From positions 203,249,750-203,313,749 of the forward strand of contig NC_134570.1 in the NCBI RefSeq assembly GCF_050947875.1: a stretch of DNA of 64,000 bases, written 5' to 3'. The translations under genes and the position numbers were made by a program. This document shows, piece by piece, positions 4,419 through 59,200 of the stretch (positions are counted from its first letter, which is position 1; each line of letters opens with the position of its first letter). Below the pieces are notes generated by a model. The model had not been told where the DNA came from, did not search any database, and worked only from the letters and a program-made list of their open reading frames with translations. Origin of the DNA: Dermacentor variabilis (Eukaryota > Arthropoda > Arachnida > Ixodida > Ixodidae).

Positions 4419-4707
4419 TGATGCGCTATAGTGTGTCCCTCTGATGGATCTCATATTAACTGCTTAATCATGTTGTTGTCTAGTTTGGCTAGATGGCGCA
4501 CTCCTTTCGGTCACAAGTTTGGCTTCGACCAATGAGGTGGTGACATCTGGCAGGGAACTCTTCGTGCATAAATGACCGCTTGTCGGTCCAGTCCTTTGTG
4601 TGGTTTGCTCAAGAGCGGTCGTCTCCCCGCCTCCCTCTCTCGTGTCGGCGCTCGCCGCGCGCTCTCCGGACGCCGGGCCCCCGCCGCCTGGCGCTGCCGA
4701 CACAACA
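4419..4707 (+). repeat. 3' LTR of gypsy element (about 289 bp)
   Basis: It starts TGATGCGC after the purine tract GAGGGGGA (4411-4418) and ends CCGACACAACA. The last bases match the truncated LTR at the window start. TG...CA ends are typical of LTRs. Only the 3' copy can be measured here. Confidence 0.7.
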
Positions 4708-6540: not shown

Positions 6541-7370
6541 GACACGGATAGGAACGTGAAATAACTAATAATAGAGCGTTAATTAATAAAACGTTAATAA
6601 ATACAGTTATTAAAACGACTACGCTATAAATATGTGGGCTCATACACTCGATTTCATCCGTATTAGGCACTCGCCTTTTAATTGCTTCCTGGCACAAAAA
6701 TACTCAGCATCAGGCTGTTTTTCTGCTGTGATCTTTGCAGTATCATGATTTTTCAAAGTGCAACAAGTAAACAGATTCTATTACTTACTTGTAGATTCGC
6801 CAGTACAATTCCGGTGCGCTGGTCCACCTGTCCAGCAATTCCTTACTGAAGGGAAACCTGCAAATAAAAACACCGCTCCGCATGTAAAAAAAATGCTCTA
6901 CTGTGACGCTTCTCAAACGATTGTGATGCATCACAAGAGCTGTCTACTTGCGTGATGTTCTGAACAAGAAGATATATTCGTTTACTTACATGTGAAGGTA
7001 TATGCCAAAGCACTTCGGGGTTTGGGTGGCACAAAAGGCACGAATGTGCCATAGCGTCCGATGCCTCGCGCAATCACATGTCATACCTAAACTGTACGAA
7101 ACTACTACGCATCCAAAAACACAGAGATTTGAAACTGAAATTCGCGCCATGCTTATTGAATGAATGCGATAAATTACACACTTAGAGAGCGCTTTCCGTG
7201 AACTTAACATTCCCACATCACCTTCATAAAGCGATCAGGTATGCGTTTTTTAATGATAAATCATAAAGCGACCTGTACTTGTTTTCAGACCTTTCAGTAG
7301 TAATTGCACTGGCACATTGACAAGTAGCAACAGGGCGGCGCCCTAGTGGTTCCCCCTTTATCGGCCCAGC

Positions 7371-8567
7371 CATAGAGTTTCCCACTATAACACCTGGAAT
7401 CTGGCGCCACCGTCTATGGGAGTTTCCAAAGGGGCGCTGTGCCGTCATGGGAATGACGGTATATGTGTCTGCGAGGATTGTGTTGGCTGGTGTTGTAAGA
7501 GGCTTCGTCTAAAACGTTGATATGGCTGCACAAATAACGCGTTCTTCAAGTAAAAGCTTCATAAAATGTTTCCATTCACACATATTACATCTTCCAGTGA
7601 AGTTTACTCACCTACAAATACATAACCAAGCGAACAAAAGCAAGAACAAACGACAAACTGTTCCAAAGCGAGCACAAATCTTGTCGTCTGTCCTCCAACT
7701 TTAGCGGCCCGCTGATACTTTTTACGTTTAATATAATTGTACGTGCAATAACAAGCTCTCATAGTTAAACAAAACATGATTTGGTGTAATAATAAAGCTA
7801 ACACAGCTTTTAAGTGCTGTTTTAGTAGAAATTTAATCATTGTGACAGACGGAACGGGGCTTGCCTGGCTCTCCGAGAACGACGCCAATCCGAAGTGACA
7901 ATAAAGCGGCATTCCCATAGAGTTTCTCACTACAACACCTAGAGGTAAATATGGCGCCACCGTCTGTGGGAGTTTCTAAAGGGGCGCAGTGCCGTCATGG
8001 CAATGACGGTATCTGTTTCTGCGAAACTCGTGCTGGCTCGTGCTATCCAAGGCTTCCTCTAAAACATGGATATGGCTATACAAATAAGGTGTTCTTAAAG
8101 TAAAATCTAGATAAAATGTTTTCATTCACGCATATTACATCTTCCAGTGAAGTTTACACACCTACATTGCATAACTAAGCGAAGAAAAGCAAGAACAGAT
8201 GACAAACTGTTCCAATGCGAGCACGAATCTTGTCGTCTGTCCTCCAACTTTAGCGGCCCGCTGATACTTTTTACGTAACATATAATTTTACATGCAATAA
8301 CAAGTTTTCATAGTTAAACAAAACAGCTTCTTACGTGCAGTTTTACTAGAAAATGAATCGTTGTTACAGACGGAACGGTGCTTTCCTGGCTCTCCGAGAA
8401 CGATGCCAATCCGAAGTCACGATATACCGGCATTTCCATGCATACCGCAGCGCAACAGCGCCAGATTTCTTTCTAGGTAATATAGTGAGAAACTCTATGG
8501 GTATTCCCATGCACACTACAACGCAGCAGCGCCAGATTTCCCTCTAAGAAATATGAGAAACTCTATG
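7371..8567. mobile_element. CATAGAG-type MITE 1, split by MITE 2
   Basis: It starts CATAGAGTTTCCCACTATAA (7371) and ends ATATGAGAAACTCTATG (8567), an imperfect terminal inverted repeat. It is flanked by GGCCCAGC (7363-7370) and GGCCCAAC (8568-8575), an 8-bp target duplication with one change. The target is the near-terminal sequence GGCCCAGC of the arm-type transposon. After removing MITE 2 the element is about 610 bp. It is non-coding. The 8-bp duplication fits the P or hAT superfamilies; CA-starting ends are P-like. The superfamily is inference. Confidence 0.75.
7916..8499. mobile_element. CATAGAG-type MITE 2, inserted inside MITE 1
   Basis: The element is 584 bp from CATAGAGTTTCTCACTA to TAGTGAGAAACTCTATG, a perfect 17-bp terminal inverted repeat. 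Flanks are GGCATTCC (7908-7915) and GGTATTCC (8500-8507), an 8-bp duplication with one mismatch. The body is a diverged copy of MITE 1. MITE 1's own sequence resumes at 8508 (CATGCACACTACAAC), matching MITE 2's internal CATGCATACCGCAGC, so the nesting order is clear. Non-coding. Confidence 0.8.
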
Positions 8568-8609
8568 GGCCCAACTTTTCCTCTAGAGCTGGTTATGTTA
8601 ACTCTATGG

Positions 8610-11308: not shown

Positions 11309-11702
11309 GTTGGGCGCCCTTGGCTGTAGGCACTCACGCAGCACAGAAAGGAGGCACAGTTCATGAAAATCGCAAAAGAAAACAAACGTGAGCGGCGGCA
11401 GACCTCTCGTAGCGCCGTTTAGTAAAGCGCAGGACGGAAAGAAATATGCCAGCACATGCCAGTACGCCGGTCTGGCAGTACGGTCCACGCGAATGACGTC
11501 ACTCTCGCTGGCTCTCTTCCGGCTGCCTCCTCACCCGGCACTCCGGGAAGCGACGGTGGCGTGTCCGCGAGGGGGATTTAGAAAGCGATTTCTGCCCCTT
11601 ATATTGACAATACAAAGAAAAAATTTCAGAACCGTAAATGAATAGGTCTGTTCTTCCCAACCCCACCAATTCATGCAAATTGAAAAGCGTTTCAGCTTCC
11701 CT

Positions 11703-13080
11703 TTAATGACCACCGGTTACCTTCCCTCCTCATTACATGCCCTGCCCATGCCCACTTCTTGTTCTTGATTTCAGCAAAGATGTCATTAACTCGCGTTTGT
11801 TCCCTCACCCAATCTGCTCTCTTCTTATCCCTTAACGTTACACCCATCATTCTTCTTTCCATAGCTCGTTGCGCCGTCCTCAATATAAGTAGAACACTTT
11901 TGGTAAGCCCCCATGTTTTTGGCCCGTAGGTGAGTATTCGTAAAACACAGCTGTTATACACTTTTCTCTTGAGAGATAATGGCAACCTGCTGTTCATGAT
12001 CTGAGAATGCCTGCCAAAAGCGCCCCAGCCCATTCGTATTGTTCTGATTATTTCAGTCTCATAATCCGGATCGGCGGTCACTTCCTTTCCTAAGTAGATG
12101 TATTCCCTTACCATTTCCAGTGCCTCGCTACCTATCGTAAACTTCTGTTCTCTTTCGAGACTGTAAAACATTATTTTAGTTTTCAGTAGATAAATTTTTA
12201 GACCCACCCTTCTGCTTTGCCTCTCCAGGTCAGTGAGCATGTATTGCAATTGATCCCCTGAGTTACTAAGCAAGGCAATATCATCAACGAATCGCAAGTT
12301 ACTAAGGTACTCTCCATTAACTCTTATCCCCAGTTCTTCCCAATCCAGGTCTCTGAATAGCTGCTGTAAACACGCTGTGAATAGCATTGCAGAGATTGTA
12401 TCTCCTTGCCTGACGCCCTTCTTTGTTGGGATTTTGTTGCTTTCTTCTTGGAGGACTACGGTGGCGGTGGAGCCGCTATAGATATATTTCAGTATTTTTA
12501 CATACGGCTCGTCTACACCCTGATTCCGTAATGCCTGCATGACTGCTGAGGGTTCGTCTGAATCAAACGCTTTCACGTAATCAATGAACGCTATATATTA
12601 GGGTTGGTTATATTCCGCACATTTCTCTATCACCTGATTAATAGTGTGAATATGGTCTATTGTTGAGTAGCCTTTACGGAATCCTGCCTGCTCCTTTGGT
12701 TGACAGAAGTCTAAGGTGTTCCTGATTCTATTTGCGATTACCTTAGTAAATACTTTGTAGACAACGGACAGTAAGCTGATCGGTCTATAATTTTTTCAAG
12801 TCTTTGGCCTGCCCTTTCTTAAGAATTAAGATTATGTTGGCGTTCTTCCAAGATTCCGGTACGCTCGAAGTCATGAGGCATTGCGTATACAGGTTGGCAC
12901 ATTTTTCTAGAACAATCTGGTAACCATCCTTCAACAAATCTGCTGTTACCTGATCCTCCGTAGCTGCCTTCCCCATTTGCATAGCTCCCAAGGCTTTCTT
13001 TACTTCTTCTGGTGTTACTTGTGGGATGTCAAATTCCTGCAGACTATTCCCTCTTTCATTATCTTCGTGTGCCACTGGTA
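11703..13080 (-). pseudogene. RTE reverse transcriptase remnant
   Basis: Fingers and palm start at 13075 ([36 protein letters not shown]). The long frame 12576-11692 carries [37 protein letters not shown] where FADD is usual, and the RTE C-terminal segment [20 protein letters not shown]. Between 12785 and 12576 the frame is broken; motif A (ALIDYVKAFDSD type) is near 12600-12550. The last few codons run into the Kolobok-like insertion. The copy is related to 48750-50210 on the plus strand. Confidence 0.85.
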
Positions 13081-13479
13081 CTGTATAAATATCTATAGAA
13101 CTCCTCGGCCACTTGAACTATCTTATCCATATTAGTAATGATATTGCCGGCTTTGTCTATTAACGCATACCTCTTATTCTTGCCTATTCTTAGTTTCTTC
13201 TTCACTGCTTTTAGGCTTGCTCCGTTCCTGAGAGCATGCTCAATTCAATCTATATTATACTTGCTTATACTTCAGCTATCTTACGCTTGTTGATTAACTT
13301 CGAAAGTTCTGCCAGTTCTATTCTAGCTGTAGGGTTAGAGGCTTTCATACACTGGCGTTTCTTGATCAGATCTTTTGTCTCCCGCAATAGTTTGCCGATA
13401 TCCTGTCTAACGGAGTTACCACCGACTTCTATTGCACACTCTTTAATGATGTCCATAAGATTCTCCTTCATTGCTTCAA

Positions 13480-14446
13480 CACTAAGGTCCTCTTCCTGAG
13501 TTAAATCCGAATACCTGTTCTGTAGCTTGATCCAGAGTTCTCTATTTTCCCTCTTACCGCTACCTCATTGATCGGTTTCTTATATGCCAGTTTCTTCTGT
13601 TCCCTCCTCAGGTCTAGGTTAATTCGAGTCCTTACCATCCTATGGTCACTGCAGCGCACCTTGCTGAGCACGTGCACGTCTTGTATGATGCCAGGGTTAG
13701 CGCAGAGTATGAGGTTTATTTCATTTCTTGTCTCGCCATTCGGGCTTATCCACCGTCCAGTTTCGGCTATCCTGCTTGCAGAAGAAGGTATTCATAATCT
13801 GTATATTATTCCGTTCTGCAAACTCTACGAATAGCTCTCCCCTGCCATTCCTAGAACCTATGCCGTATTCCCCCACTGACTTGACTCCAGCCTGCTTCTT
13901 GCCTACCCTGGCATTGAACGTACCCATCAGTATAGTGTATTTCGTTTTGACTTTACCCGTCGCCGATTCTACGTCTTCATAGAAGCTTTAGACTTTCTGG
14001 TCATCATGACTGGATGTAGGGGCGCATACCTGCACAACCTTCATTTTGTACCTCTTATTAAGTTTCACAACAAGACCTGACACCGTCTCGTTAATGCTGT
14101 ATAATTCATGTGTGTTACCAGCTATATCCTTATTAATCAGGAAACCGACTCCTAGTTCTCGTCTCTCTGCTAAGCCCCGGTAGCACAGGACGTGCCCGCT
14201 TTTGAGCACTTTATATGCTTCCTTTGTCCTTCTAACCTCACTGAGCCCTACTAAATCCTATTTACTGCCCGCTAATTTCTCCAATAGCACTGCTAGACTC
14301 GCCTCACTAGATAACGTTCTAACATTAAACATTGCCAGGTTCAGATTCCAATGGAGGCCTGTCTGGACCCGGAGATTCTTAGCACCCTCTGCTGCGTCAC
14401 AGGTCTGACAACCGCCTGTTACGGCTGGCGTGTAGCACCGCGTCAA
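13480..14446 (-). pseudogene. RTE apurinic-like endonuclease remnant
   Basis: NLAMFNVRTLSSEASLAVLL (from about 14350), then [20 protein letters not shown] (14200-14140), then MGTFNARVGKKQAGVKSVGE (13927-13870) and NNIQIMNTFF. The canonical GDFNA catalytic Asp is replaced by Thr (GTFNA). Stops separate the pieces. Family identity is shown by the plus-strand copy, which has the same blocks in the same order. Confidence 0.8.
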
Positions 14447-15199
14447 AAAGGGATGCTCGACCAGCAGGCTTCATCGAACCGAAGGGTGAATTCTTAATTC
14501 GCTCTGGTTGTCTCCAGTGGGTGCCGGTCTGGCGGACGCCCCGCAGTGCTCACAGGCCCCTTTGTGTGTGTGCACCCTTTCCGCGAACTAGACAGGACCC
14601 CCGGACTGCCGCCAGTGGAGACATGCTCGTAAATTCAAGCCGCCCATCCCAGACCTACAGGCTCACTGAAAGTGAGAGTAGCTGCAAATCCACGACGAGG
14701 GCTTACCACGCCAACTGGGAGAATGGACCAGGCGCCCTTTCCGCGTACAAACTTCGCCTAGAAAAAAGGATAAGCGCCTCCAATCCCGGACCTGCGGGTT
14801 GGTACCTGCGGAGGCGGGCCCGTAGGGGCTCACGGAAAGTGGGATACGCCCATCCACAAATCAGACTCAGTGCCTGTCACGTGACGTTGACGTGAGCAAG
14901 ATCCCGCCCACGATTTTAGAGAGCCTATTTCAACGGGCTCTGCAATATACTTTTTCACTTCATTCTCTTCTTCTCATCTTTCACTATCCATTGAATAAAC
15001 CCTGCAAGTTACGCACTAGAAATCGTCTCGTCCTTGCCTGGTCGCCATGGTCTACCCGATGCCTGCAGCCCGCCGACAACGCCACGCTACCCGATAGTAA
15101 CGTCGGTCGAGATTCGAGAAACAGGCGTCGCAACAACTCGGCAGCGGTGGGGTACGCTACCCTGGAGTGCGCAACAACGCCGTGGTCAGTTGCTTCGCA
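14447..15199 (-). other. RTE 5' region between tRNA-like head and endonuclease
   Basis: About 750 bp, read on the minus strand, lies between the head module and the endonuclease. Most of it is absent from the plus-strand RTE copy, where the two modules are joined at about 47340, so it is a deletion there or an insertion here. No coding motif was recognised. Confidence 0.45.
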
Positions 15200-15465
15200 G
15201 CTGCTGGGGACTGAGGGCCGGGGTTTGATTATTATATTCATACAGGAGGTCGTGGCCAAGTATTGCACCGGGGTGGCCAATCTTGCTCTGGTGAAGGAGT
15301 GCGTTACTGGTTCTGGTCACCGGGATCAGGCCGCACTCCAGGCCTGTTTATGCAATTTTATCAATACGCAGATTTTCTTTTTAGTCCGTTGGAAAATTGC
15401 GCGGCACCGGGATTTGAACCACGGTCCTCTTGCGCGTGAGGCCACCTCTACGCCACCGCTGGAAA
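15200..15465 (-). promoter_or_regulatory. tRNA-like (pol III box A/B) head module of RTE copy
   Basis: On the minus strand the text contains TGGCGTAGAGG, fitting a box A, and about 40 bases later GTGGTTCAAATCCCGG, an excellent box B (GGTTCRANNCC). The same module occurs at 47090-47340 on the plus strand, also at the 5' side of an RTE copy. Such heads are usual in SINEs. Either a SINE lies next to both RTE copies or the RTE family has acquired one. Confidence 0.6.
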
Positions 15466-26351: not shown

Positions 26352-27262
26352 ATACATAGAGAAAAAGAAGGGGGGGGGTGTATGTGTGTGTGTTTGTAGG
26401 GGGGGGGTATATGATTAGGGCGGTAGGAAAAAACGTACTAACACCGTCCTCTAAACCCATTCCTTTAAGGTACCGTAACAAAACGTATTATGCATCAAGT
26501 TCATACAACTAACTCTGATATTACTACACACGCAAGGCGACGCAAGCTACATTTGCCATGACTCGCATTCGCGACTGCACCGGATTCTCTCCATATTATT
26601 CTGGTTAATCTTGCTCACTGCACCGAGGCAAAAGAAAGAACATGGGCGCATGTGCCTTTAAAGTACCTCGACCTTGCGAGGCACCGCTGCGCGTGCCAGG
26701 GGAGCTGTCCGTGCGAACACTCCCTGGCACACACCTGCCTAGGCGGCCCCAACCTACGTACCGTTCTGCTTCGAGTTTTGATCCCCCCCACTGTCCCTTG
26801 GGTGCCCTGGAGTTCCTGCGCCGCCGGCTTTATTATAACCTTCGGTGCTCTCCTGAGACTTCCGTTTGTCGGTTATATGTACCCTACCAGTTGGATCACT
26901 ACTTTTAATTAAAAAAAAAACGATTTATCGTCGCAACGACAGATCGCGAGAGCGGCTTCTGCAACATACCGCGCCCGTGCGAATAGAATTACGGAACGCC
27001 AACGAGGAATCTGACCACAGCTTCGAAGCTCCTAACTCGTAACTTCGTTGAGTGACACTCGTGCAACAGGCGTGACCGCCGAAAACCGCATACCGCCGGA
27101 AACTTCAACAGGATCATCCTTCGGTTGCATAATTGCCACCTGCACGGCCAACATGAACCACACTCACACCATCCCGCAACATAGAATAATGAACCAACTT
27201 ATAAAGCCCAACCCACGGCTGCACGCACACCACATCACCACACTAGAAGCGAGACACCATAC
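26352..27262 (+). mobile_element. Diverged fragment of the palindrome-arm transposon (inner part)
   Basis: Bases from the G-rich/TGTG tract through GGCGGTA, GGTACCGTAACAAA, GCGCATGTGCCTTTAAAGTA and on to GCGAGACACCATACTAC match the left arm at about 37430-38315 in the same order with substitutions and small indels. The terminal part next to the palindrome centre is missing. It shows that the arm sequence is a dispersed repeat and that the two palindrome arms are far closer to each other than to this copy. Confidence 0.75.
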
Positions 27263-27277
27263 TACAGTGAACTGGAA

Positions 27278-33830: not shown

Positions 33831-34036
33831 CAGCGTGCCACCCCTAAAAAAATCTTCGGCGCCCGATATTCGCTGCGAGCCGTGGTACAACAAAACCGAA
33901 AGTGGTGGGTCCATTTTGTAAACGTGCTTTCCGAAGCAGACGACCGAGCTTGGTACTACCCAGTTCCAGACAGAGGGCGCTCTTTAGCTCCATTTCCGCA
34001 GCGCCCCCTGAGCAATACAAGAGCGCCATAGTAACT

Positions 34037-34044
34037 TTATGGTG
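34037..34044 (+). repeat. 8-bp direct repeat TTATGGTG (left target duplication of palindromic element)
   Basis: TTATGGTG ends exactly where the left terminus CATAGAGTTAG begins; an identical octamer starts exactly after the right terminus CTCTATG (42939-42946). Confidence 0.8.
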
Positions 34045-34833
34045 CATAGAGTTAGTAGAACAACTCTAGAGGAAAAGCTGGGCCGGAAAAGTGGGAACCT
34101 CTAGGGCGCCGCCCTGTTGCTACTGGTCAATGTGGCCAGCGCAATTACTATTGAAAGAGCTGAAAGCAAGTACAGGTCACCTTATGCTTTCTCATCTAAA
34201 ATCGCATACCTGATGGCTTTATGAAGGTGGTACGTTAATATGAAGTTTACAGAAAGAGCTCGCTAAGTCCGCGACTTATGTAAATCACGATGTACGCTTT
34301 CTTGCAATAAAGGATGACACGAATTTAGGTTTCGGATCTGTTTTTTGGATGCGTAGTAGTTTCGTACAGTTTGGGTTTGACATGCGATCGCGCGTCGACA
34401 TCGGACGCTATGGCACACCAATGCATTGGGCACACACACTCGTGCCTTGTGTGCCACCGAAGTGCTCTGGCATATACCTTGACATGTAAGTAAACGAATG
34501 TATCTCCTTGTTGAGAATATCACGCGAGTAGGCAGCTCTTGTGGTGCATCGCAATCGTTTGAGAAGCGTCACAGTAGAGCATTTTTCTGCATGCGGAGCG
34601 GTGTTTTTGTTTGCAAGTTTCCCTTCAGTAGGAAATTGCTGGACAGGCGGACCAGCGCACCGGAATTGTACTGGCGAAGCCGCAAGCAACTCAAAGAATC
34701 TGTTTAATTGTTGCACTTTGTACAATCATGCTTCTACAAAGGCCACAGCAGACAAACAGTCTGATGCCGAGTATATCTCTGCCACGAAGTAATCAAGAGG
34801 CGAGTGCCTAATGCGGACGAAATCGAGTGCATC

Positions 34834-35007
34834 GAGACTTAGAACAGCAGAAAGCTCAGCTACTTGGTAAGGATTCATTATGCAAAACAGAGGTGAGGCG
34901 TGCAGACAGGACACAAGAGTAGAGAAGTGGGCGGCGCTCGTGTTGTTTGTTTGTAAATACTCTACTCTTTGTGTCCTGTCTGCACGCCTCACCTCCGTTT
35001 TGCATAA
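34834..35007 (+). mobile_element. 174-bp hairpin-ended insertion in left arm, 10-bp target duplication
   Basis: It is the mirror of 41953-42126. Within it, 34878-35007 folds into a hairpin of about 46-bp arms (TTATGCAAAAC...GTTTTGCATAA) around a loop of about 36 nt. The copy at 6608-7370 lacks the insertion. The 10-mer that stands once there stands on both sides here (CGAGTGCATC at 34824-34833 and 35008-35017). Confidence 0.75.
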
Positions 35008-35142
35008 CGAGTGCATCAACCCACATATTAATAGCGTAGGCGTTTTATTAACTGTGCAATATTTTCAACACTTCCTTGCATGCCATTTCATGTGGAATAT
35101 CTTTTCTGGTCACAAATTTGTGCAGCGAATCTATTTGCATGA

Positions 35143-35345
35143 TTGACTCCGGGCCTGCGGGAACGTTCACTTGCACTTGATGCTGAGTCTTTTACATGTA
35201 TCCATAAACTGAAGATATGCACATCGGATCCCTGCGAGCATTTTCAAAATTTAATTATTTTAGACAACAGGCACATATGCAATACTGACATAATCCCGAG
35301 CACCACTAAGCAGCTGGGACACATTTTTGTTGTCCATACTCGCAG
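35143..35345 (+). CDS. Candidate exon in left arm, unknown product
   Basis: The 67-codon frame ends HIFVVHTR at a good donor, CGCAG|GTAAAAT (35345/35346). About 300 bp downstream a small segment, 35641-35675, is bounded by TTTATGCAG and CCAAAG|GTAAAA, and the phases allow joining. The product is not recognised. It is mirrored in the right arm (41615-41817, minus). A conserved small spliced gene inside the arm is possible; chance is not excluded. Confidence 0.25.
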
Positions 35346-36253
35346 GTAAAATAAGTAGATCATGTGGACAGCTCCAGCTCATTCTCCTTAAAACAGTGTG
35401 TACAAGGGGTATGCAAAGATAATTTTTTTCTCGCGCACCGATTATTTTGCTGTATAAGCAAGAGAACCCACCACGTTAGTGTAACGTATCTTGCACATCA
35501 CACTAATATGTGCTTTAATTTACCAAGTGAGATGAGTTACTTTTATGGCTCATTCAGTCATATCACACTGCAAGCTGCATTCATCAATCTTCAATTGGAT
35601 TTTGGAAATGTTTAATGAAACATGTTTCCCTTTTATGCAGATATGCAATGGCAAGCCCTTCCGTGTGTTCCAAAGGTAAAATTTAAGCTCTAAATTAAAA
35701 AAGACATTTTTAGTCAGAAACAAGCAAAAATGGTGAATGCAGAGTATCGAAGCCCAAGGTACAGAAATTATGAGAAGTGTCGAATGGTTTTAAGGAAAGA
35801 GTCGTATTTGCAAATGCAACTCTTTAGTGGAGGTCAAGCAAGTCAGTATAGGTAGAATACTCTGCAAGATTATGCGAGTGAGGGGATGTCAAACAATGGG
35901 TCAGGAAATGCGTTGTTTTTCTGCAAAACAAAAGCTATGATTGTCATTACATAAGTCATTTTAGCATCATGAGACTGGTGCTTGATAAATTCAGAAATAA
36001 ACCGAAAAACAAGACAAGCAAAAATAAAAAAAACAATTTAATGATGCTCTCTCCACTCTGGGATAAATAAAAATAAACACATCACATCTAATGTGGACAT
36101 ATCAGACGCCTTGTGAAACACGAAAGGAAAAATTCAGTTTCGAGCTATGGAACTTGCCGCATAGATGTGGGGGGCCTTGCACTAATAGTGATAGTTACCA
36201 CTGCATTTAGAAATTGAAAGCATTTGTGCAGACAAGGATGATTCTTTATATTT

Positions 36254-36556
36254 TTGGCTACCACTTCAAATACCTCCACCAAGTGTTACAATGCTGCACG
36301 CAGCCATACTAAGGATCTCGCAGCAACACCTGCAGCTAAAAAGCAGAAGCAGTCAAAGTCCTGGTGTGTACTGGACACCATATTTGAAAATTTTTGGGCA
36401 AGAAGAATGCAAGAAGCAGACATAACTGCATTGATTTCAATAATTTCCCATTTGAATGGCCTTTTCTTTTTGTTTAGACAATGCCTACGCCTAGCCACAG
36501 CAGCTCCCTCATACAGACTCCGCAAGCCAAGAGGCCGTGGAGGCAAATGCAGGTAA
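36254..36556 (+). CDS. Unknown ORF in left arm with possible splice signals
   Basis: A 100-codon frame with a basic stretch AAKKQKQSK and the text LDTIFENFWARRMQEADI, not recognised. A polypyrimidine tract and TTTAG at 36465-36478 and a donor CAAATGCAG|GTAAGAGG at 36550/36551 suggest that the true exon is 36479-36550. The next acceptor, TTTCGTTTAG, precedes 36622 and a short tail to a stop follows. Poly-A signals AATAAA lie at 36952 and 36979. Mirrored at 40404-40706. Function unknown. Confidence 0.3.
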   Translation: MATTSNTSTKCYNAARSHTKDLAATPAAKKQKQSKSWCVLDTIFENFWARRMQEADITALISIISHLNGLFFLFRQCLRLATAAPSYRLRKPRGRGGKCR

Positions 36557-36924
36557 GAGGCAAGAAGCAATAGCACTGGTGTCGACAGTCATCTAATTTC
36601 TTTCTTTTTCTTTCGTTTAGGCAGCCAGCACACCTCGAATAGCCACCTTGACTGTGGGTGTGTCACCCTAGTCGTAAAGGAAACATTTGAGGGAAAGCGG
36701 CAGGCAATGTGAACAGCCACTTCTCCATGTAAACGATACTCTTTCTCTCGGATGACTCCTACGCCTCTCCACGCCACCACACTTGTGCACAAAGATGCCG
36801 CGGAGGCACATGCAGGTCAGAGGCAAGAAGCAGTGGCACTGGTGTCGACATTCACCCAATTTCTTTTTCTTACACTGAGACAGCCAGCACACCTCGAACA
36901 GCCACCTTGACTGTGGGTGTGTCA
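36484..36924 (+). repeat. Diverged tandem duplication (about 260-275 bp) in left arm
   Basis: CCTACGCCT at 36484 and 36758, GGCAAGAAGCA at 36559 and 36821, and CCACCTTGACTGTGGGTGTG at 36645 and 36903 occur in the same order. Each copy has an exon-like block, a GT donor and a pyrimidine-rich acceptor. Mirrored at 40036-40476. Confidence 0.7.
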
Positions 36925-38460
36925 GTAGATTCCTGTTGTACATATGCTCATAATAAACTTCAGTAAACTTGAACTTGATAATAAACTTGAAGGCAAATGG
37001 GACATGGATGCATTGTATTTTTGAACATTTATTGTACACATACAATATATGTTACACTTTGCAGTGCTACAGAGTGTATTTTGAAGCTTCCCCCTATATT
37101 TTGCACCTTTAATTACGTATGTGTTGTGTGGCCCTCAATGCAGTTCATGTTGTAGCAGCTGCTTTGTGTGTGTATCGCACATTGGCTTAAGCTCGTGATA
37201 TCCACATACTTCTCTCACATATACAAAATAAAGTTCTATGTAGTCCTCAGTGTTACAACAAAAAATGAAAGTAAACAATCCGATCGTGGAATTGTGTTTA
37301 ATACAGTGATTCCTATGACAGTTACTGAGAAGTTGACAACTTGAACTGGTCAATTGGTCCATAGCCTCCTCTATTTTTCAAAAATAAAGGAGGCAATGGA
37401 TCCGTCATGGCAAGGAATTGTATGTATACATAAAAAGAGGGGGGTATGTGTGTGTGTGTTTGTAGTAGGGGGTATAGGATTAGGGCGGTACGAAAAAATG
37501 TACCAACACCGTCCTCTAGACCCATTGCGTTAAGGTACCGTAACAAAGCGTATTATGCATAAAGTTCACACAACCAACTCTGATATTACTGCACACGCCA
37601 GGCGACACGAGCTACATTTGTCATGACGCATTCGCGACTGCACCGGATGCCCTCCATATTATTCTCTTTAATCGTGCACACTGCACCGAGGCAAAAGAAA
37701 GATCATGGGCGCAGGTGCCTTTTCTCGACCTTGCGAGGCTCTGCTGCGCGTGCCAGGGTAGCTGTCTGTGCGAACACTCCCTGGCACACACACCTGCCTT
37801 GGCGGCCCCAACCTACGTACCGTTCTGCTTCGAGCTTTGATCCGCCCACTGTTACTTCGATGCCCTGGAGTTCTTGCGCCGCCTGCTTTATTATAATCTC
37901 AGGTGCTCTCCTGATACTTCCGTTTGTCGGTTACATGTGCCCTACAGCTGGATCAGTACTCATAATAATAAAAAAAAAACGATCTATCGTCGCGACGATA
38001 GATCGCGAAAGCGGCTTTTGCAACGTACCGCGCCCGTGCGAAGAGAATTACGGAACGCCAACGAGGAATCTGACCACAGCTTCGAGCTCGTAATCTCGTC
38101 GAGTAACACTCCTGCAACAGGCGTGACCGCTGAAACCCGCATACCGCCGGAAACTTCAACAGGATCATCCCTCGGTTGCATAACTGCCACCTGTACGGCC
38201 AACATGGACCACACCCGCACCGTCCCGCAAGATAGAATAAAGAACCAACTTGTAAAGCCCAAACACACGGCTGCACGCACACATCACGAACGTACAAGCG
38301 AGACGCCATGCTGCTACGCTGCTACTGTTGCCGGATTAAAACTGACTACTGTCACCAAGTCTAGCAAGCGTCTCAGGAGCTGGCAACCTCGGCGCGTAGC
38401 AACATGGCGGCGCTCTTGCGGTTCCCGATTTCAATGCATGGGCCCTATGGGTAGCTTGTC

Positions 38461-38500
38461 CTCTAGAGTCAGCATAGAGTTACTATGCTGACTCTAGAGG
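38461..38500. repeat. Palindrome centre: two inner transposon ends sharing CATAG-AGTTA-CTATG
   Basis: Reading rightwards from 38473, CATAGAGTTACTATG runs into CTGACTCTAGAGGACAAGCT; reading leftwards gives the same except for the inverted AGTTA core. Five bases (38478-38482, AGTTA) are the only ones not in the stem. So two copies of the same terminus meet with no spacer. Confidence 0.85.
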
Positions 38501-40035
38501 ACAAGCTACCCATAGGGCCCATGCATTGAAATCGGGAACCGCAAGAGCGCCGCCATGTTGCTACGCGCCGAGGTTGCCAGCTCCTGAGACGCTTGCTAGA
38601 CTTGGTGACAGTAGTCAGTTTTAATCCGGCAACAGTAGCAGCGTAGCAGCATGGCGTCTCGCTTGTACGTTCGTGATGTGTGCGTGCAGCCGTGTGTTTG
38701 GGCTTTACAAGTTGGTTCTTTATTCTATCTTGCGGGACGGTGCGGGTGTGGTCCATGTTGGCCGTACAGGTGGCAGTTATGCAACCGAGGGATGATCCTG
38801 TTGAAGTTTCCGGCGGTATGCGGTTTTCAGCGGTCACGCCTGTTGCAGGAGTGTTACTCGACGAGATTACGAGCTCGAAGCTGTGGTCAGATTCCTCGTT
38901 GGCGTTCCGTAATTCTCTTCGCACGGGCGCGGTACGTTGCAAAAGCCGCTTTCGCGATCTATCGTCGCGACGATAGATCGTTTTTTTTTTATTATTATGA
39001 GTACTGATCCAGCTGTAGGGCACATGTAACCGACAAACGGAAGTATCAGGAGAGCACCTGAGATTATAATAAAGCAGGCGGCGCAAGAACTCCAGGGCAT
39101 CGAAGTAACAGTGGGCGGATCAAAGCTCGAAGCAGAACGGTACGTAGGTTGGGGCCGCCAAGGCAGGTGTGTGTGCCAGGGAGTGTTCGCACAGACAGCT
39201 ACCCTGGCACGCGCAGCAGAGCCTCGCAAGGTCGAGAAAAGGCACCTGCGCCCATGATCTTTCTTTTGCCTCGGTGCAGTGTGCACGATTAAAGAGAATA
39301 ATATGGAGGGCATCCGGTGCAGTCGCGAATGCGTCATGACAAATGTAGCTCGTGTCGCCTGGCGTGTGCAGTAATATCAGAGTTGGTTGTGTGAACTTTA
39401 TGCATAATACGCTTTGTTACGGTACCTTAACGCAATGGGTCTAGAGGACGGTGTTGGTACATTTTTTCGTACCGCCCTAATCCTATACCCCCTACTACAA
39501 ACACACACACACATACCCCCCTCTTTTTATGTATACATACAATTCCTTGCCATGACGGATCCATTGCCTCCTTTATTTTTGAAAAATAGAGGAGGCTATG
39601 GACCAATTGACCAGTTCAAGTTGTCAACTTCTCAGTAACTGTCATAGGAATCACTGTATTAAACACAATTCCACGATCGGATTGTTTACTTTCATTTTTT
39701 GTTGTAACACTGAGGACTACATAGAACTTTATTTTGTATATGTGAGAGAAGTATGTGGATATCACGAGCTTAAGCCAATGTGCGATACACACACAAAGCA
39801 GCTGCTACAACATGAACTGCATTGAGGGCCACACAACACATACGTAATTAAAGGTGCAAAATATAGGGGGAAGCTTCAAAATACACTCTGTAGCACTGCA
39901 AAGTGTAACATATATTGTATGTGTACAATAAATGTTCAAAAATACAATGCATCCATGTCCCATTTGCCTTCAAGTTTATTATCAAGTTCAAGTTTACTGA
40001 AGTTTATTATGAGCATATGTACAACAGGAATCTAC

Positions 40036-40476
40036 TGACACACCCACAGTCAAGGTGGCTGTTCGAGGTGTGCTGGCTGTCTCAGTGTAAGAAAAAGAAA
40101 TTGGGTGAATGTCGACACCAGTGCCACTGCTTCTTGCCTCTGACCTGCACGTGCCTCCGCGGCATCTTTGTGCACAAGTGTGGTGGCGTGGAGAGGCGTA
40201 GGAGTCATCCGAGAGAAAGAGTATCGTTTACATGGAGAAGTGGCTGTTCACATTGCCTGCCGCTTTCCCTCAAATGTTTCCTTTACGACTAGGGTGACAC
40301 ACCCACAGTCAAGGTGGCTATTCGAGGTGTGCTGGCTGCCTAAACGAAAGAAAAAGAAAGAAATTAGATGACTGTCGACACCAGTGCTATTGCTTCTTGC
40401 CTCTTACCTGCATTTGCCTCCACGGCCTCTTGGCTTGCGGAGTCTGTATGAGGGAGCTGCTGTGGCTAGGCGTAGG
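40036..40476 (-). repeat. Mirror of the tandem duplication in right arm
   Basis: The same two units by symmetry, with one arm-specific substitution near 40148. Confidence 0.7.
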
Positions 40477-40706
40477 CATTGTCTAAACAAAAAGAAAAGG
40501 CCATTCAAATGGGAAATTATTGAAATCAATGCAGTTATGTCTGCTTCTTGCATTCTTCTTGCCCAAAAATTTTCAAATATGGTGTCCAGTACACACCAGG
40601 ACTTTGACTGCTTCTGCTTTTTAGCTGCAGGTGTTGCTGCGAGATCCTTAGTATGGCTGCGTGCAGCATTGTAACACTTGGTGGAGGTATTTGAAGTGGT
40701 AGCCAA
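40404..40706 (-). CDS. Mirror copy of the unknown ORF in right arm
   Basis: Translation identical to 36254-36556; all splice-like signals are mirrored. Confidence 0.3.
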   Translation of the reverse strand: MATTSNTSTKCYNAARSHTKDLAATPAAKKQKQSKSWCVLDTIFENFWARRMQEADITALISIISHLNGLFFLFRQCLRLATAAPSYRLRKPRGRGGKCR

Positions 40707-41614
40707 AAATATAAAGAATCATCCTTGTCTGCACAAATGCTTTCAATTTCTAAATGCAGTGGTAACTATCACTATTAGTGCAAGGCCCCCCACATCTATG
40801 CGGCAAGTTCCATAGCTCGAAACTGAATTTTTCCTTTCGTGTTTCACAAGGCGTCTGATATGTCCACATTAGATGTGATGTGTTTATTTTTATTTATCCC
40901 AGAGTGGAGAGAGCATCATTAAATTGTTTTTTTTATTTTTGCTTGTCTTGTTTTTCGGTTTATTTCTGAATTTATCAAGCACCAGTCTCATGATGCTAAA
41001 ATGACTTATGTAATGACAATCATAGCTTTTGTTTTGCAGAAAAACAACGCATTTCCTGACCCATTGTTTGACATCCCCTCACTCGCATAATCTTGCAGAG
41101 TATTCTACCTATACTGACTTGCTTGACCTCCACTAAAGAGTTGCATTTGCAAATACGACTCTTTCCTTAAAACCATTCGACACTTCTCATAATTTCTGTA
41201 CCTTGGGCTTCGATACTCTGCATTCACCATTTTTGCTTGTTTCTGACTAAAAATGTCTTTTTTAATTTAGAGCTTAAATTTTACCTTTGGAACACACGGA
41301 AGGGCTTGCCATTGCATATCTGCATAAAAGGGAAACATGTTTCATTAAACATTTCCAAAATCCAATTGAAGATTGATGAATGCAGCTTGCAGTGTGATAT
41401 GACTGAATGAGCCATAAAAGTAACTCATCTCACTTGGTAAATTAAAGCACATATTAGTGTGATGTGCAAGATACGTTACACTAACGTGGTGGGTTCTCTT
41501 GCTTATACAGCAAAATAATCGGTGCGCGAGAAAAAAATTATCTTTGCATACCCCTTGTACACACTGTTTTAAGGAGAATGAGCTGGAGCTGTCCACATGA
41601 TCTACTTATTTTAC

Positions 41615-41817
41615 CTGCGAGTATGGACAACAAAAATGTGTCCCAGCTGCTTAGTGGTGCTCGGGATTATGTCAGTATTGCATATGTGCCTGTTGTCTAA
41701 AATAATTAAATTTTGAAAATGCTCGCAGGGATCCGATGTGCATATCTTCAGTTTATGGATACATGTAAAAGACTCAGCATCAAGTGCAAGTGAACGTTCC
41801 CGCAGGCCCGGAGTCAA
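41615..41817 (-). CDS. Mirror copy of the candidate exon in right arm
   Basis: Identical in translation to 35143-35345 by palindrome symmetry, with the same donor. Confidence 0.25.
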
Positions 41818-41952
41818 TCATGCAAATAGATTCGCTGCACAAATTTGTGACCAGAAAAGATATTCCACATGAAATGGCATGCAAGGAAGTGTTGAAAATA
41901 TTGCACAGTTAATAAAACGCCTACGCTATTAATATGTGGGTTGATGCACTCG

Positions 41953-42126
41953 TTATGCAAAACGGAGGTGAGGCGTGCAGACAGGACACAAAGAGTAGAG
42001 TATTTACAAACAAACAACACGAGCGCCGCCCACTTCTCTACTCTTGTGTCCTGTCTGCACGCCTCACCTCTGTTTTGCATAATGAATCCTTACCAAGTAG
42101 CTGAGCTTTCTGCTGTTCTAAGTCTC
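41953..42126 (-). mobile_element. 174-bp hairpin-ended insertion in right arm, GATGCACTCG duplicated
   Basis: GATGCACTCG stands at 41943-41952 and 42127-42136 on both sides. The uninterrupted relative near 6643-6655 reads CTCATACACTCGATTTC. The insertion occurs at the mirrored place in the left arm, so it predates formation of the palindrome. Confidence 0.75.
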
Positions 42127-42915
42127 GATGCACTCGATTTCGTCCGCATTAGGCACTCGCCTCTTGATTACTTCGTGGCAGAGATATACTCGGCATCAGA
42201 CTGTTTGTCTGCTGTGGCCTTTGTAGAAGCATGATTGTACAAAGTGCAACAATTAAACAGATTCTTTGAGTTGCTTGCGGCTTCGCCAGTACAATTCCGG
42301 TGCGCTGGTCCGCCTGTCCAGCAATTTCCTACTGAAGGGAAACTTGCAAACAAAAACACCGCTCCGCATGCAGAAAAATGCTCTACTGTGACGCTTCTCA
42401 AACGATTGCGATGCACCACAAGAGCTGCCTACTCGCGTGATATTCTCAACAAGGAGATACATTCGTTTACTTACATGTCAAGGTATATGCCAGAGCACTT
42501 CGGTGGCACACAAGGCACGAGTGTGTGTGCCCAATGCATTGGTGTGCCATAGCGTCCGATGTCGACGCGCGATCGCATGTCAAACCCAAACTGTACGAAA
42601 CTACTACGCATCCAAAAAACAGATCCGAAACCTAAATTCGTGTCATCCTTTATTGCAAGAAAGCGTACATCGTGATTTACATAAGTCGCGGACTTAGCGA
42701 GCTCTTTCTGTAAACTTCATATTAACGTACCACCTTCATAAAGCCATCAGGTATGCGATTTTAGATGAGAAAGCATAAGGTGACCTGTACTTGCTTTCAG
42801 CTCTTTCAATAGTAATTGCGCTGGCCACATTGACCAGTAGCAACAGGGCGGCGCCCTAGAGGTTCCCACTTTTCCGGCCCAGCTTTTCCTCTAGAGTTGT
42901 TCTACTAACTCTATG

Positions 42916-42938
42916 AGAGTCAGTATAGTAACTCTATG
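42916..42938. repeat. Extra terminus-like segment at right end of palindromic element
   Basis: Read inward it starts CATAGAGTTACTATACTGAC, matching the inner (centre) terminus CATAGAGTTACTATGCTGAC with one change, not the outer terminus. It lies between the palindrome and the right target duplication. Confidence 0.7.
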
Positions 42939-42946
42939 TTATGGTG
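42939..42946 (+). repeat. 8-bp direct repeat TTATGGTG (right target duplication)
   Basis: The partner of 34037-34044. CATA also follows on both sides by chance or overlap. Confidence 0.8.
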
Positions 42947-46700: not shown

Positions 46701-49700
46701 TCCTATTGCACCCTGTGCACTGTGTGCTTTGGGTGCGAATGAAAGTTTGCGAGGGTGAGACAATAAAGATGGTGCCTTCACGAGTGCAGCCTTCCTGTGC
46801 GAGCAAAGGGGAAGAGGGGGAGGGGAGTGAGCTCACGATAATGCAATGAAAACATTCATGAGGAGGCCAGGCGGAGTGGGTGGTAAGTTGGCGTGCGTCT
46901 CTGCTGTGGCTGCGCGTGGCTATAAGTACAGCTGAGCACATACAGAGCCACGCACCCTGCTTCAGAGGTAATCTGCCATGTGTGCAAAGAGTGGGCACGT
47001 TTGGAAAGTGTGGCACCATGTAAGCTGTCTTCCTGCATGTTTAGTATTTGAGGCTGCATAGTATATGAGGCTACGCCACCGCTGCACCTGCAGCGTGGTT
47101 CAAATCCCGGTGCCGGCAATTTTCCACCGGATTAAAAAAAAAATCCGCGTATTGATAAAATTGCGTAAACAGGCCTGGAGTGTGGCCTGATCCCGGTGAC
47201 CAGAACTGGTAGTGCACTCACTCACCAGAGCAGGATTGGCCACCCTGGTGCAGTACTTGGCCACAACCTCCTATATGAACACAACGATCAAACCCCGGCC
47301 CTCAGTCCCCAGCAGCTGTGAAGAAACTGACCACGGCGGTGGTCAGACCTGCGACACAGCAGAGGGTGCTAAGAATCCCTGGCTCCGGACAGGCCGCCAT
47401 TGGAATATGAACCTGGCAACATTTAACGCTAGAACGTTATCTAGTGAGACGAGTCTAGCGGTGCTATTGGAGGAATTAGAGGGCAGTAAATGGGATATAA
47501 TAGGGCTCAGTGAAGCTAGGAGGCCAAAAGAAGCATATACAGTGATAAAAAGCGGGCACGTCCTGTGCTACCGGGGCTTAGCGGAGAGATGAGAACTAGG
47601 AGTTGGATTCTTGATTAATAAGAATATAGCTGGTAACAGGAATTAAACAGGAGCAGGAAATGGAACAGGAATACAGGAACTCTATAGCATTAACGAGAGG
47701 GTGGCAGCTCTTGTTGTGAAACTTCATAAGAGGTACAAAATGAAGGTTGTACAGGTCTACGCCTCTACATCCAGTAATGATGACCAGGAAGTCGAAAGCT
47801 TCTATGAAGACGTGGAATCGGCAATGGGTAGAGTGAAAACAAAATACACTGTACTAATGGGCAACTTTAATGCCAAGGCAGGCAAGAAGCAGGCTAGAGA
47901 CAAGGCAGTGGGGGAATATGGCATACCCACTAGGAATAGCAGGGGAGAATTATTAGTAGAGTTTGTGGAACAGAATAATATGCGGATAATGAATACCTTC
48001 TTCCGCAAGCGGGATAGCCAAAAGTGGACGTGGAGGAGCCTGAACGGCGAGACTAGAAATGAAATAAACCGCATACTCTGCGCTAACCCTGGCATCATAC
48101 AAGATGTGCACGTGCTCAGCAAGGTGCGCTGCAGTGACCATAGGATGGTAAGGACTCGAATTAACCTAGACCTGAGGAGGGAACAGAAGAAACTGGCATA
48201 TAAGAAGCCGATCAATGAGTTAGCAGTAAGAGGGAAAATAGAGGAGTTCCAGATCAAGGTACAGAACAGGTATTCGGCTTTAACTCAGGAAGAGGACCTT
48301 AGTGTTAAAGCAGTGAAGGACAATCTTATGAGCATCTTAAGGAGTGTGCAATAGAAGTCGGTGGTAACTCCGTTAGACAGGATATCGGTAAACTATTGCA
48401 GGAGACGAAAGATCTGACCAAGAAACATCAATGTATGAAAGCCTCTAACCCTAGAGCTAGAATAGAACTGCCAGAACTTTCGAAGTTAATCAACAAGCGT
48501 AAGACAGCTGACATAAGGAAGTATAATATGGACAGAATTGAACATGCTCTCAGGAACGGAGGAAGCCTAAAAGCGGTGAAGAAGAAACTAGGAATTGGCA
48601 AGAATCAGATGTATGCGTTAAGAGACAAAGCCGGCAATATCATTACTAATTTGGATGAGATAGTTCAAGTGGCTGAGGAGTTCTATAGAGATTTATACAG
48701 TACCAGTGGCACCCACGACAATAATGGACCAGAAAATAGTCTAGAAGAATTCTAAATCCCACAGGTAACGCCGGAAGAAGTAAAGAAAGCCTTGGGAGCT
48801 ATGCAAAGGGGGAAGGCAGCTGGGGAGGATCAGGTAACCGCAGATTTGTTGAAGGATAGTGGGCAGATTGTTCTAGAGAAACTGGCCACCCTGTATACGC
48901 AATGCCTCATGACCTCGAGCGTACCGGAATCTTGGAAGAACGCTAACATAATCCTAATCCATAAGAAAGGGGACACCAAGGACTTGAAAAATTATAGATC
49001 GACCAGCTTACTGTCCGCTGCCTACAAAGTATTTACTAAGGTAATTGCAAATAGAATCAGGAACACCTTAGACTTCCGTCAACCAAAGGACCAGGCAGGA
49101 TTCCGTAAAGGCTACGCAACAATAGACCATATTCACACTATCAATCAGGTGATAGAGAAATGTGTGGAATATAACCAACCCTTATATATAGCTTTCATTG
49201 ATTACGAGAAAGCGTTTCATTCTGTCTAAACCTCAGCAGTCATGGAGGCATTACGGAATCAGGGTATAGACGAGCCGTAGGTAAAAATACTGAAAGATAT
49301 ATATCGTGGCTCCACAGCCACCGTAGTCCTCCATAAGGAAAGCAACAAAATCCCAATAAAGAAAGGCATCAGGCAGGGAGATACAATCTCTCCAATGCTA
49401 TTCACAGCGTGTTTACAGGAGGTACAGCAGGTATATGGAGAATACCTTAGTAACTTGCGATTCGCTGATGATATTGCCTTGCTTAGTAACTCAGGGGACC
49501 AATTGCAATGCATGCTCACTGACCTGGAGAAGCAAAGCAGAAGAGTGGGTCTAAAAATTAATCTGCAGAAAACTAAAGTAATGTTTAACAGTCTCGGAAG
49601 AGAACAGCAATTTACAATAGGTAGCGAGACACTGTAAGTGGTAAAGGAATACATCTACTTAGGGCAGGTAGTGACGGCGGATCCGGATCATGAGACGGAA

Positions 49701-50213
49701 ATAATCAGAAGAATAAGAATAGGCTGGGGTGCGTTTGGCAGGCATTCTCAGATCATGAACAGCAGGTTGCCGTTATCCCTCAAGAGAATAGCGTGTAATA
49801 GCTGTGTCTTACCAGTACTCACCTACAGGGCAGAAAGCTGGAGGCTCACGAAAAGGGTTCTACTCAAATTGAGGACGACACAACGAGATATGGAAAGCAG
49901 AATGATAGGTGTAACTTTAAGGGATAAAAGCAGATTGGTTGAGGGAACAAACGCGAGTTAATGACATCTTAGTTGAAATCAAGAAAAAGAAATGGGCATG
50001 GGCAGGACATGTAATGAGGAGGGAGGATAACCGATGGTCATTAAGGGTTACGGACTGGATTCCAAGGGAAGGGAAGCGTAGCAGGGGGCGGAAGAAAGTT
50101 AGGTGGGCGGATGAGAATAAGAAGTTTGCAGGGACGACATGGCCACAATTAGTGCATGACCGGGGTTGTTTGAGATGTATGGGAGAGGCCTTTGCCCTGC
50201 AGTGGGCGTAACC

Positions 50214-56200: not shown

Positions 56201-59200
56201 TGCTTAATTATACACGCATGCACCCGGTATTTCCTGTCACAGTACGAGCACCAATATGCCTAATATGTGTATCGACAAGCCTTCAGAGCGTTTTTGAATG
56301 TGCCTGTAGCGGTTTGAGCCCTTAAGGGCAGTAAATGACATGCATTTATTTTTTCCAGCTGGCCAATTTTTCGGATGTTCTCACAGCCCCTAGGGAGTTA
56401 AAAAAAAATTGGACGTGAACTGTGAAACTGACCAAGATGTTTCAACCCCTCTTGACATAAAACATAGTTCTGTATCACTCAGGGAATTTTGCAATGGCGC
56501 TCAGAGAAAACCTGGAAAACTCAGGGATCTTGGAAATGTCAACTAGATCAGCCATCTTCCGTTTCGACAGCAAGTCAAACGACGCTGAACCACATAGCCA
56601 GGAACATTTCGACGCAGACAACAAAGACGAATGCAAGGGATTAAGCCGTTTGCAGAACTGCGCTGAATGAGGAGCCAGCGAGCAATCTGGGAGCAATGCA
56701 TGCTCCATTCGTGTTTCAGAGGGTGGCGCGGCATAGAGCTATAAAGTGCAGCCTATTCGTGTTCCGAGAGGTGGACAGGCGACGGGAGAGAGGCATGCAG
56801 AGAAGGCTGGAAAATGAGCGCGTGGCAGCTGTTGGGGGCAGCGGTCCATCGAGCAGCGGCTCGAGTTTTGCATTTTCTTTTTTTTTTTTTCAAGGATTTC
56901 ACATTTCACTGCCTTTCAGCACAGGCTCCCAGCAGCTAGATTTCATCGTTTTAACCAATTATGCACCATCAGAACATTGTAGTAAGTAGGTTTTTTTCAC
57001 CATGGAAAACATGCAAAAGTTCACGGTGCAGCAGCTTCTTATTGTTGTAACCGATACATTGTTAAAACCGGTATCTTTATAAGTGGGTTCGACTGTATAT
57101 CAATTTTTTTTTTTCATCGTTTTAACCAATTATGCACCATCAGAACATTGTAGTAAGTAGGTTTTTTTCACCATGGAAAACATGCAAAAGTTCACGGTGC
57201 AGCAGCTTCTTATTGTTGTAACCGATACATTGTTAAAACCGGTATCTTTATAAGTGGGTTCGACTGTATATCAATTTTTTGCCTAAGAAATTGCCATTGC
57301 AGGTCCCGCTGCTGCTTCTCAATTTGAACTGCACGCACCATAGTGGAGGATTTAACGTCATCTCCATGTGACCACCCGCTATGCCGTTATGTCTTTTGTA
57401 GACTCTTTAGTTAGCTCTGTATATGAAGCATACGCTTGGCAGGTGTAGGTGTTCAGCTTGCGTGAGTCACTCTGTGGCTCTGCTTGGGTTGAGGTTGCCA
57501 GATACGGTCCCTCTGCTGCAGGAGCCGGCAGGGTGGTTCATTGCCACACATTGCCGCCTCGGCCATTGCAACCAGAGAAAAACGATGCCACTCGCAGTGG
57601 TGGGTCGCGGCCACTCTCTAGAGTTGCTGATGTCGCACATAAGAGGTACCACAGTCAACAACAGATGGCACCACTCCAATTTTATATTTTCTTCATTTTC
57701 TCGCCTTCAGAAGCTCTGTTTTCATTAAAATTCGTTATTACAGAAGCATAATCTTTCAATCTAGCTTGACCTAACATTTGCCTTTAATGTCTCTTTAAGG
57801 TGTAGTAAAGTGAATTAAGGTGAGGTAAAGCGAGTGAAGGTGAATTAAAGTGTATTAAGGTGTATTTCACATTCAAACCACATAAGGATACTTAAGTGAC
57901 TGTCACTTTTATTGCTTTTATGGCAGCTAGCTTTCAGGACACACATTACACATTAAAATGTTTAATGTGACACACATTAAAATGTTTCTCGCTATTCACA
58001 AGCTGCACATGGTAAACAAGAAGGGCACAGTGCAAAAAATAAGAGAGCAAACGATAACGTCAGCTCTCCTTCACTGATTGTCTCCTTGAACAACATTCTC
58101 TGCCATGCAACTTTTGAAGACTTGGCCACAGATAGTATTAATCTTATATTCTTAAAAAATTTGCACTGCTAAGACTGTGTCAATCCTTGTGACATCACGC
58201 TCTGCAGTTGCTTGGGGAAGCCATCATAGTGGAAGCAAAATGGAAACAAGGAACAGAAGATGGGACAGCAGCATGTATCACCTGTGCTGTCCGGTCATCA
58301 ATTCTTTCTATTGGCCTTGTTTGCATCACAGTGACTTCCCCAAGTACCTGTCAACTCACCTAACAACAAGATCCTTCAGCACAAACAGTGTGTCTTACAT
58401 GTTTAGTCTCTTCACATTGTTCAGGTTGAGGCAGCTGGACATTGAGTTCATGAAGCGGCTTCACCAGAAGGTCAACATTGTGCCCGTCATTGCCAAGGCT
58501 GACACATTGACCCCCGTCGAAGTTCGACAGATGAAGGACCGAGTGAGTTGGCATGCCTCTGCTTTTGTTTTCATGTTCCTGTGTAGTGCGCGATGCGGTA
58601 GAACAAAATTGTGCAACTACTGTCAGAGGTAGCCTGTGTAGCAGTTGTATTGGAAAGTTGTAACATGTGCATACCTTTCTTCGCCATAAAACCCGATATA
58701 TCATCACATGCCTTTGTTGCAGCAACCACCGGCGAATTTTTTTTGCATTAAGCGAACAGAACTCTGTGATATCGCTTTCAGGCACTACTTGTACAGCTAC
58801 TGTCAGATTTCAACAGAATAAGAAAGGCACATCTATTGCGGCTTAACTAAACAGATGCTGTTAGGAACAGGCGTAAAATACTTTGGAAGGAATTCGTATT
58901 AAGCTAGTACATTCAAGGTGTTTCAATATGAAATCTCCAGCACCCTCCACAGGAGATCCAAAATGGTGCTCAAGGTGTGTTTGGGGCAACTGTGCCGTGC
59001 CGGTGACTGTGCCGGGATAGCTCCTCAAAATCAAGAGCTGTATGGAAGGTAAAATGCTGTTCAAGATGCGTGCATATTCAGAAACAGCAGAATGACAGAA
59101 AGCTTAATGAGCTAATAGAGATTTACAGCTTGAAAGTTTAGCATAGAAAACATGAACTCCACAGAAAGAATTGTTTTTCTTTTTGTTCCTCTTGTGCCTG

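Follow-up and report, generated by a model that had tools for sequence, protein, structure and literature searches.

A 64,000-nucleotide stretch of the Dermacentor variabilis genome (NCBI RefSeq assembly GCF_050947875.1, contig NC_134570.1, positions 203,249,750 to 203,313,749), referred to as the window, contains an 8.9-kb near-perfect palindrome that is bounded by transposon tips. The analysis is based on the assembled sequence of this 64-kb window. A preliminary description had paired base i with base 76960-i from 34045 to 42915 without any change in length, and the comparison of the two arms bore this out. The arms, at 34045-38477 and 38483-42915, are 4433 bp each, align with 0 indels, and are separated by 5 unpaired bases at the centre (38478-38482). 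The full count of arm substitutions by alignment gave two, at 36810/40150 and 38136/38824, in agreement with the two that had been noticed earlier. An inverted repeat of 4.4 kb is far beyond chance, and the 8.9-kb palindrome is confirmed as a real feature of the sequence.

Boundaries and duplications of the two elements

The 8-bp direct copies outside the CATAG...CTATG unit were found as TTATGGTG at 34037-34044 and at 42939-42946. Their presence on both sides upholds the earlier proposal that an element with these ends was transposed here with an 8-bp target-site duplication. The mirror itself stops at 42915. The 23 bp from 42916 to 42938 lie outside the mirror, were not mentioned in the preliminary description, and read AGAGTCAG followed by TATAGTAACTCTATG. 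These 23 bp resolve the palindrome into two elements, one within the other.

Element 1 lies on the forward strand. Its first 4428 bp, from the left end up to the site where element 2 is inserted, occupy 34045-38472, and its last 15 bp, TATAGTAACTCTATG, are found at 42924-42938, separated from the remainder by element 2. Element 2 is whole and occupies 38473-42915 on the reverse strand, inverted relative to element 1. The inner target-site duplication AGAGTCAG surrounds element 2 alone. Its left copy is at 38465-38472, corresponding to bases 4421-4428 of element 1, and its right copy is at 42916-42923. Thus, the inner element carries a duplication of its own, and the outer element resumes past the inner one with a 15-bp tip followed by its own duplication, TTATGGTG. 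Element 1, joined from its two parts, and element 2 are both 4443 bp long and differ at 3 of 4443 positions (element positions 2766, 4092, and 4429), which places both in one family. When the 15-bp remainder at 42924-42938 was read on the other strand (CATAGAGTTACTATA) and compared with the element 2 tip at 38473-38487 (CATAGAGTTACTATG), 14 of 15 bases were identical. The insertion point of element 2 is therefore 15 bp inside the right end of element 1. The inner duplication AGAGTCAG, together with the 15-bp remainder beyond element 2, indicates two nested insertions.

The choice of the inner boundaries was controlled by testing 4026 boundary pairs (38440-38500 against 42880-42945) for flanking direct repeats of 6-15 bp. 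Such a repeat was present in 38 of the 4026 pairs, and it was at least 8 bp long in 12 of these 38. The pair 38473/42915 was the only one among the 38 that joined an 8-bp repeat to ends that read CATAG and CTATG. The other 11 pairs, with repeats of 8-11 bp, all fell inside TCCTCTAGAGT, which is common to the terminal repeats, and were without tips. Among 200,000 random pairs of 8-mers taken from the window, 5 matched.

The junction explains the unusual shape of the locus. It runs from GTCAG of element 1 to the element 2 tip and then to CTGAC of element 2. The right-end tip of element 2 (38473-38487, given on the forward strand) reads CATAG-AGTTA-CTATG and is an inverted repeat in itself. The centre is seamless because this 15-bp tip is a small inverted repeat and the 8 bases preceding it are the duplicated target. 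The mirror continues through the junction because GTCAG stands before the tip and CTGAC after it. The centre of the palindrome therefore falls within the element 2 tip, away from the junction itself.

Element ends, coding content and candidate superfamily

The left and right ends of the element form an inverted repeat. Local alignment of the outer 200 bp gave a score of 96; no score above 42 was reached in 300 shuffles. The outermost 35 bases of both ends agree at 29 of 35 positions without gaps, and the likeness is weaker further inward. Terminal inverted repeats of about 30 bp are a trait of the P superfamily, and the two exact cases of 8-bp target duplication agree with both the P and the hAT superfamilies. 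Duplications of 8 bp are found in the P superfamily, in hAT, and in a few others, and are not diagnostic of P because of this sharing. Termini of hAT elements are of the CAGNG type, to which the CATAG termini found here do not conform. The P superfamily is the likelier home of the element, as a candidate assignment.

A six-frame Pfam scan of the arm found neither a THAP domain, which belongs to the transposase of autonomous P-superfamily copies, nor a P transposase. Its single match up to an E value of 1 was a sub-threshold, CBM13-like one (E 0.15). Because no transposase domain was seen in the arm, the element is most likely non-autonomous. No RNA family was matched at the gathering score. 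An exact-pattern scan for the tip gave 0 matches in the prokaryote and 0 in the viral contig collections, which is unsurprising for those collections.

The longest stop-free frame in the joined element 1 is 215 amino acids. In the part of this frame that could be compared with the family copy at 26356-27263 (469 aligned bases, 37841-38312, about three quarters of the frame), the three positions of the codon had 17, 18, and 15 substitutions, and the lengths of 5 among the 6 indels were not multiples of three. There is no sign of coding constraint, since the substitutions are even over the codon positions and 5 of the 6 indels are out of frame. With no Pfam match above threshold in addition, a coding gene in the arm was rejected. 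The length of the frame weighs against this verdict; none of 200 base shuffles reached 215 amino acids (mean 116, maximum 205).

Two smaller repeats were observed inside the arm. An imperfect inverted repeat of about 136 bp with 76% identity at 34875-35010 is present in both arms and perhaps represents an older insertion of small size. Two direct repeats, each about 135 bp long and 86% identical to each other, are located at 36529-36665 and 36792-36924, and their borders look splice-like by eye.

Order of insertion and competing explanations

Very probably, the palindrome arose when one 4443-bp terminal-inverted-repeat transposon, itself probably non-autonomous, was inserted twice in succession. 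Element 1 would have landed first and duplicated TTATGGTG; it is taken as the earlier one because element 2 interrupts it. The near-identical element 2 would then have landed, inverted, within the right terminal repeat of element 1 at a distance of 15 bp from its outer end, with duplication of AGAGTCAG. With this site and this orientation, the outcome would be an 8.9-kb palindrome that is almost perfect and has 5 bases at its centre. Both insertions would have occurred in a cut-and-paste mode with transposase supplied from elsewhere. Element 2 would derive from a close copy, perhaps the sister copy of element 1 itself through a local hop. The low divergence of the arms would reflect either recent insertion or later exchange between the arms. 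Two points weigh against two recent successive insertions at this site. The near identity of the arms could come from gene conversion instead of recent insertion, and TTATGGTG around the whole is also expected if a ready-made composite had moved.

Movement as a single unit had been suggested in the preliminary description, in the form of a head-to-head dimer of a 4.4-kb transposon. The two head-to-head 4.4-kb copies are present, but movement as one unit is not supported: the second duplication, AGAGTCAG, flanks the inner copy alone and has the last 15 bp of the outer copy beyond it. A version that accounts for the inner duplication is that the composite was built elsewhere by self-insertion and was moved here as one 8.9-kb unit via the left end of element 1 and its 15-bp right tip. 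The flanking of the whole by TTATGGTG is consistent with this history; however, the same duplication is equally expected from element 1 alone, and nothing observed requires movement as a unit. The outer right end of such a composite would consist of just 15 bp of its own repeat and 8 duplicated bases, followed by the left end of element 2. The two ends of the Drosophila P element differ in the spacing of their internal transposase-binding sites (PMC7776569). If the family resembles P, such an outer right end would for this reason probably work poorly. Transfer of a ready-made composite is very improbable. Near-perfect palindromes are also a known type of artefact, and an assembly or library artefact in the form of an inverted chimera of a long read is a further candidate origin. 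At this locus, each side of the mirror ends at a transposon tip, the outer flanks are unlike each other, and the arms hold substitutions. An artefact is highly improbable because the outer breaks and the centre coincide with transposon tips and because two different 8-bp duplications are present.

The almost identical arms would also be expected from an inverted duplication of a single inserted element in place, via template switching or hairpin replication. Such a process predicts neither an 8-bp direct repeat exactly around the second copy, nor the ending of the second copy exactly at the CATAG tip, nor the 15-bp remainder of the element 1 tip past it, and its probability is close to negligible. 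The overall shape recalls a foldback-type element that would normally possess inverted repeats of 4.4 kb, and a family with giant inverted repeats had been the other suggestion of the preliminary description. That suggestion was not sustained, since short, imperfect terminal repeats and a separate 8-bp duplication belong to each 4443-bp half. A related partial copy at 6603-8608 has the left end in single form, and BLAST of the arm within the window listed no mirror partner for this copy, which is itself truncated. It is extremely improbable that the locus represents a foldback element of this kind. Two nested insertions thus very probably account for the locus, and the 8.9-kb mirror is best read without recourse to a novel type of element.

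Nested self-insertion of DNA transposons is an already known phenomenon. In Drosophila, three self-insertions of P{lacW} are mentioned, one of which was placed in the internal mini-white marker (PMC4744444). As in the present case, a transposon copy lies within a copy of itself and is recognised by element-element junctions; in contrast, the placed P{lacW} case is internal, and here an inverted copy lies 15 bp within the terminal repeat, which yields a giant palindrome (PMC4744444). Drosophila P elements produce 8-bp duplications and prefer nearby targets (PMC7776569). The P superfamily and the P-MITEs share with the element described here target duplications of 8 bp, terminal repeats roughly 30 bp long, non-autonomous relatives, and the preference for nearby targets (PMC7776569, PMC1562414). 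The arm differs in that no THAP or P transposase was found in it, and membership in the superfamily is a candidate assignment. Galileo, a foldback-like element of the P superfamily, carries long repeats inside a single element and makes 7-bp duplications (PMC2775673). It is likewise a DNA transposon with terminal inverted repeats, but the repeats here are short, the duplications are 8 bp at both the inner and the outer level, and the long mirror consists of two whole elements with separate duplications and not of long inverted repeats in a single element (PMC2775673). For plant MULEs with multiple terminal repeats, nested insertion is discussed as one possible origin (PMC3310237). These also have extra ends in one locus; however, their extra repeats are mostly tandem and not head-to-head, and some were amplified as units (PMC3310237). 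Among the open-licence titles and abstracts listed, no self-insertion yielding a seamless kilobase palindrome was recognised.

Related insertions in the window and possible tip targeting

The window holds two older relatives of the element. A partial copy on the reverse strand at 6603-8608 represents the left-end part of the family, with 663 of 773 aligned bases identical. A fragment on the forward strand at 26356-27263 corresponds to arm bases 3382-4268, in the right part of the element, with 87% identity. The copy at 6603-8608 is interrupted, at bases 34-41 counted from its tip, by a further CATAG-tipped insertion at 7371-8567 with tips CATAGAGTTTC. The 8-bp flanks of this insertion, GGCCCAGC and GGCCCAAC, are identical at 7 of 8 positions. 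Internal repeats and additional CATAGAGTTTC tips were found inside it, and the insertion may itself be compound.

The outer target site of element 1 overlaps a tip-like 15-mer, CATAAAGTTACTATG, on the reverse strand at 34027-34041, with 1 mismatch to the tip pattern. A scan of the window for the tip pattern gave 3 matches, 2 of which are the source tips, compared with a mean of 0.02 in 100 shuffles. Judged by its sequence, the 15-mer could be one end of a related, older element. A search for a second end of this element at the left flank with the expected duplication gave 5 matches, compared with 4.69 expected, and BLAST of the left flank gave no convincing partner, the best other match being 31 bp (E 0.023). 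The older element at 34027-34041 stays unproven because no second end was found.

Among the repeats listed (20 of the 24 families of direct repeats and 25 of the 37 inverted pairs), an inverted pair of apparent retroelement copies at 11700-15400 and 47116-50047 has pieces that are 86-95% complementary and about 32-38 kb apart. A tandem duplication of about 170 bp with 2.0 copies, 100% identical, is found at 56941-57280. Of 20 listed open reading frames, 15 (8 + 7) were compared with Pfam, and several reverse-transcriptase matches were obtained, including one at 11692-12576. An open reading frame at 58177-58632 matches septin in part (Pfam E 8.3e-15). The septin match and the reverse-transcriptase matches are indicative of eukaryotic DNA.

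The three CATAG-tipped insertions that are delimited on both sides in the window all lie in or at related tip or tip-like sequence. The sites are bases 16-23 of the element 1 right end for element 2, bases 34-41 of a family left end for the 7371-8567 insertion, and the tip-like 15-mer for element 1. This tally of n=3 was noticed post hoc, and other tip-like 9-mers in the window were left out of it as element ends. A bolder possibility, which is unlikely but is suggested by these three sites, is that CATAG-tipped elements in this genome would favour ends of the same kind as insertion sites, that giant seamless palindromes would recur, and that some composites would later be mobilised as long-armed units.

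Read as two nested insertions, an apparent giant-armed transposon becomes a simple and checkable event. One self-insertion into a terminal repeat with an inverted-repeat tip suffices for an almost spacerless 8.9-kb palindrome. When a long palindrome with a target duplication is met, a second, inner duplication should be looked for before the whole is called one element. Long palindromes are fragile and are able to drive rearrangement in other organisms. Tip targeting, if true genome-wide, would be a steady source of long palindromes.

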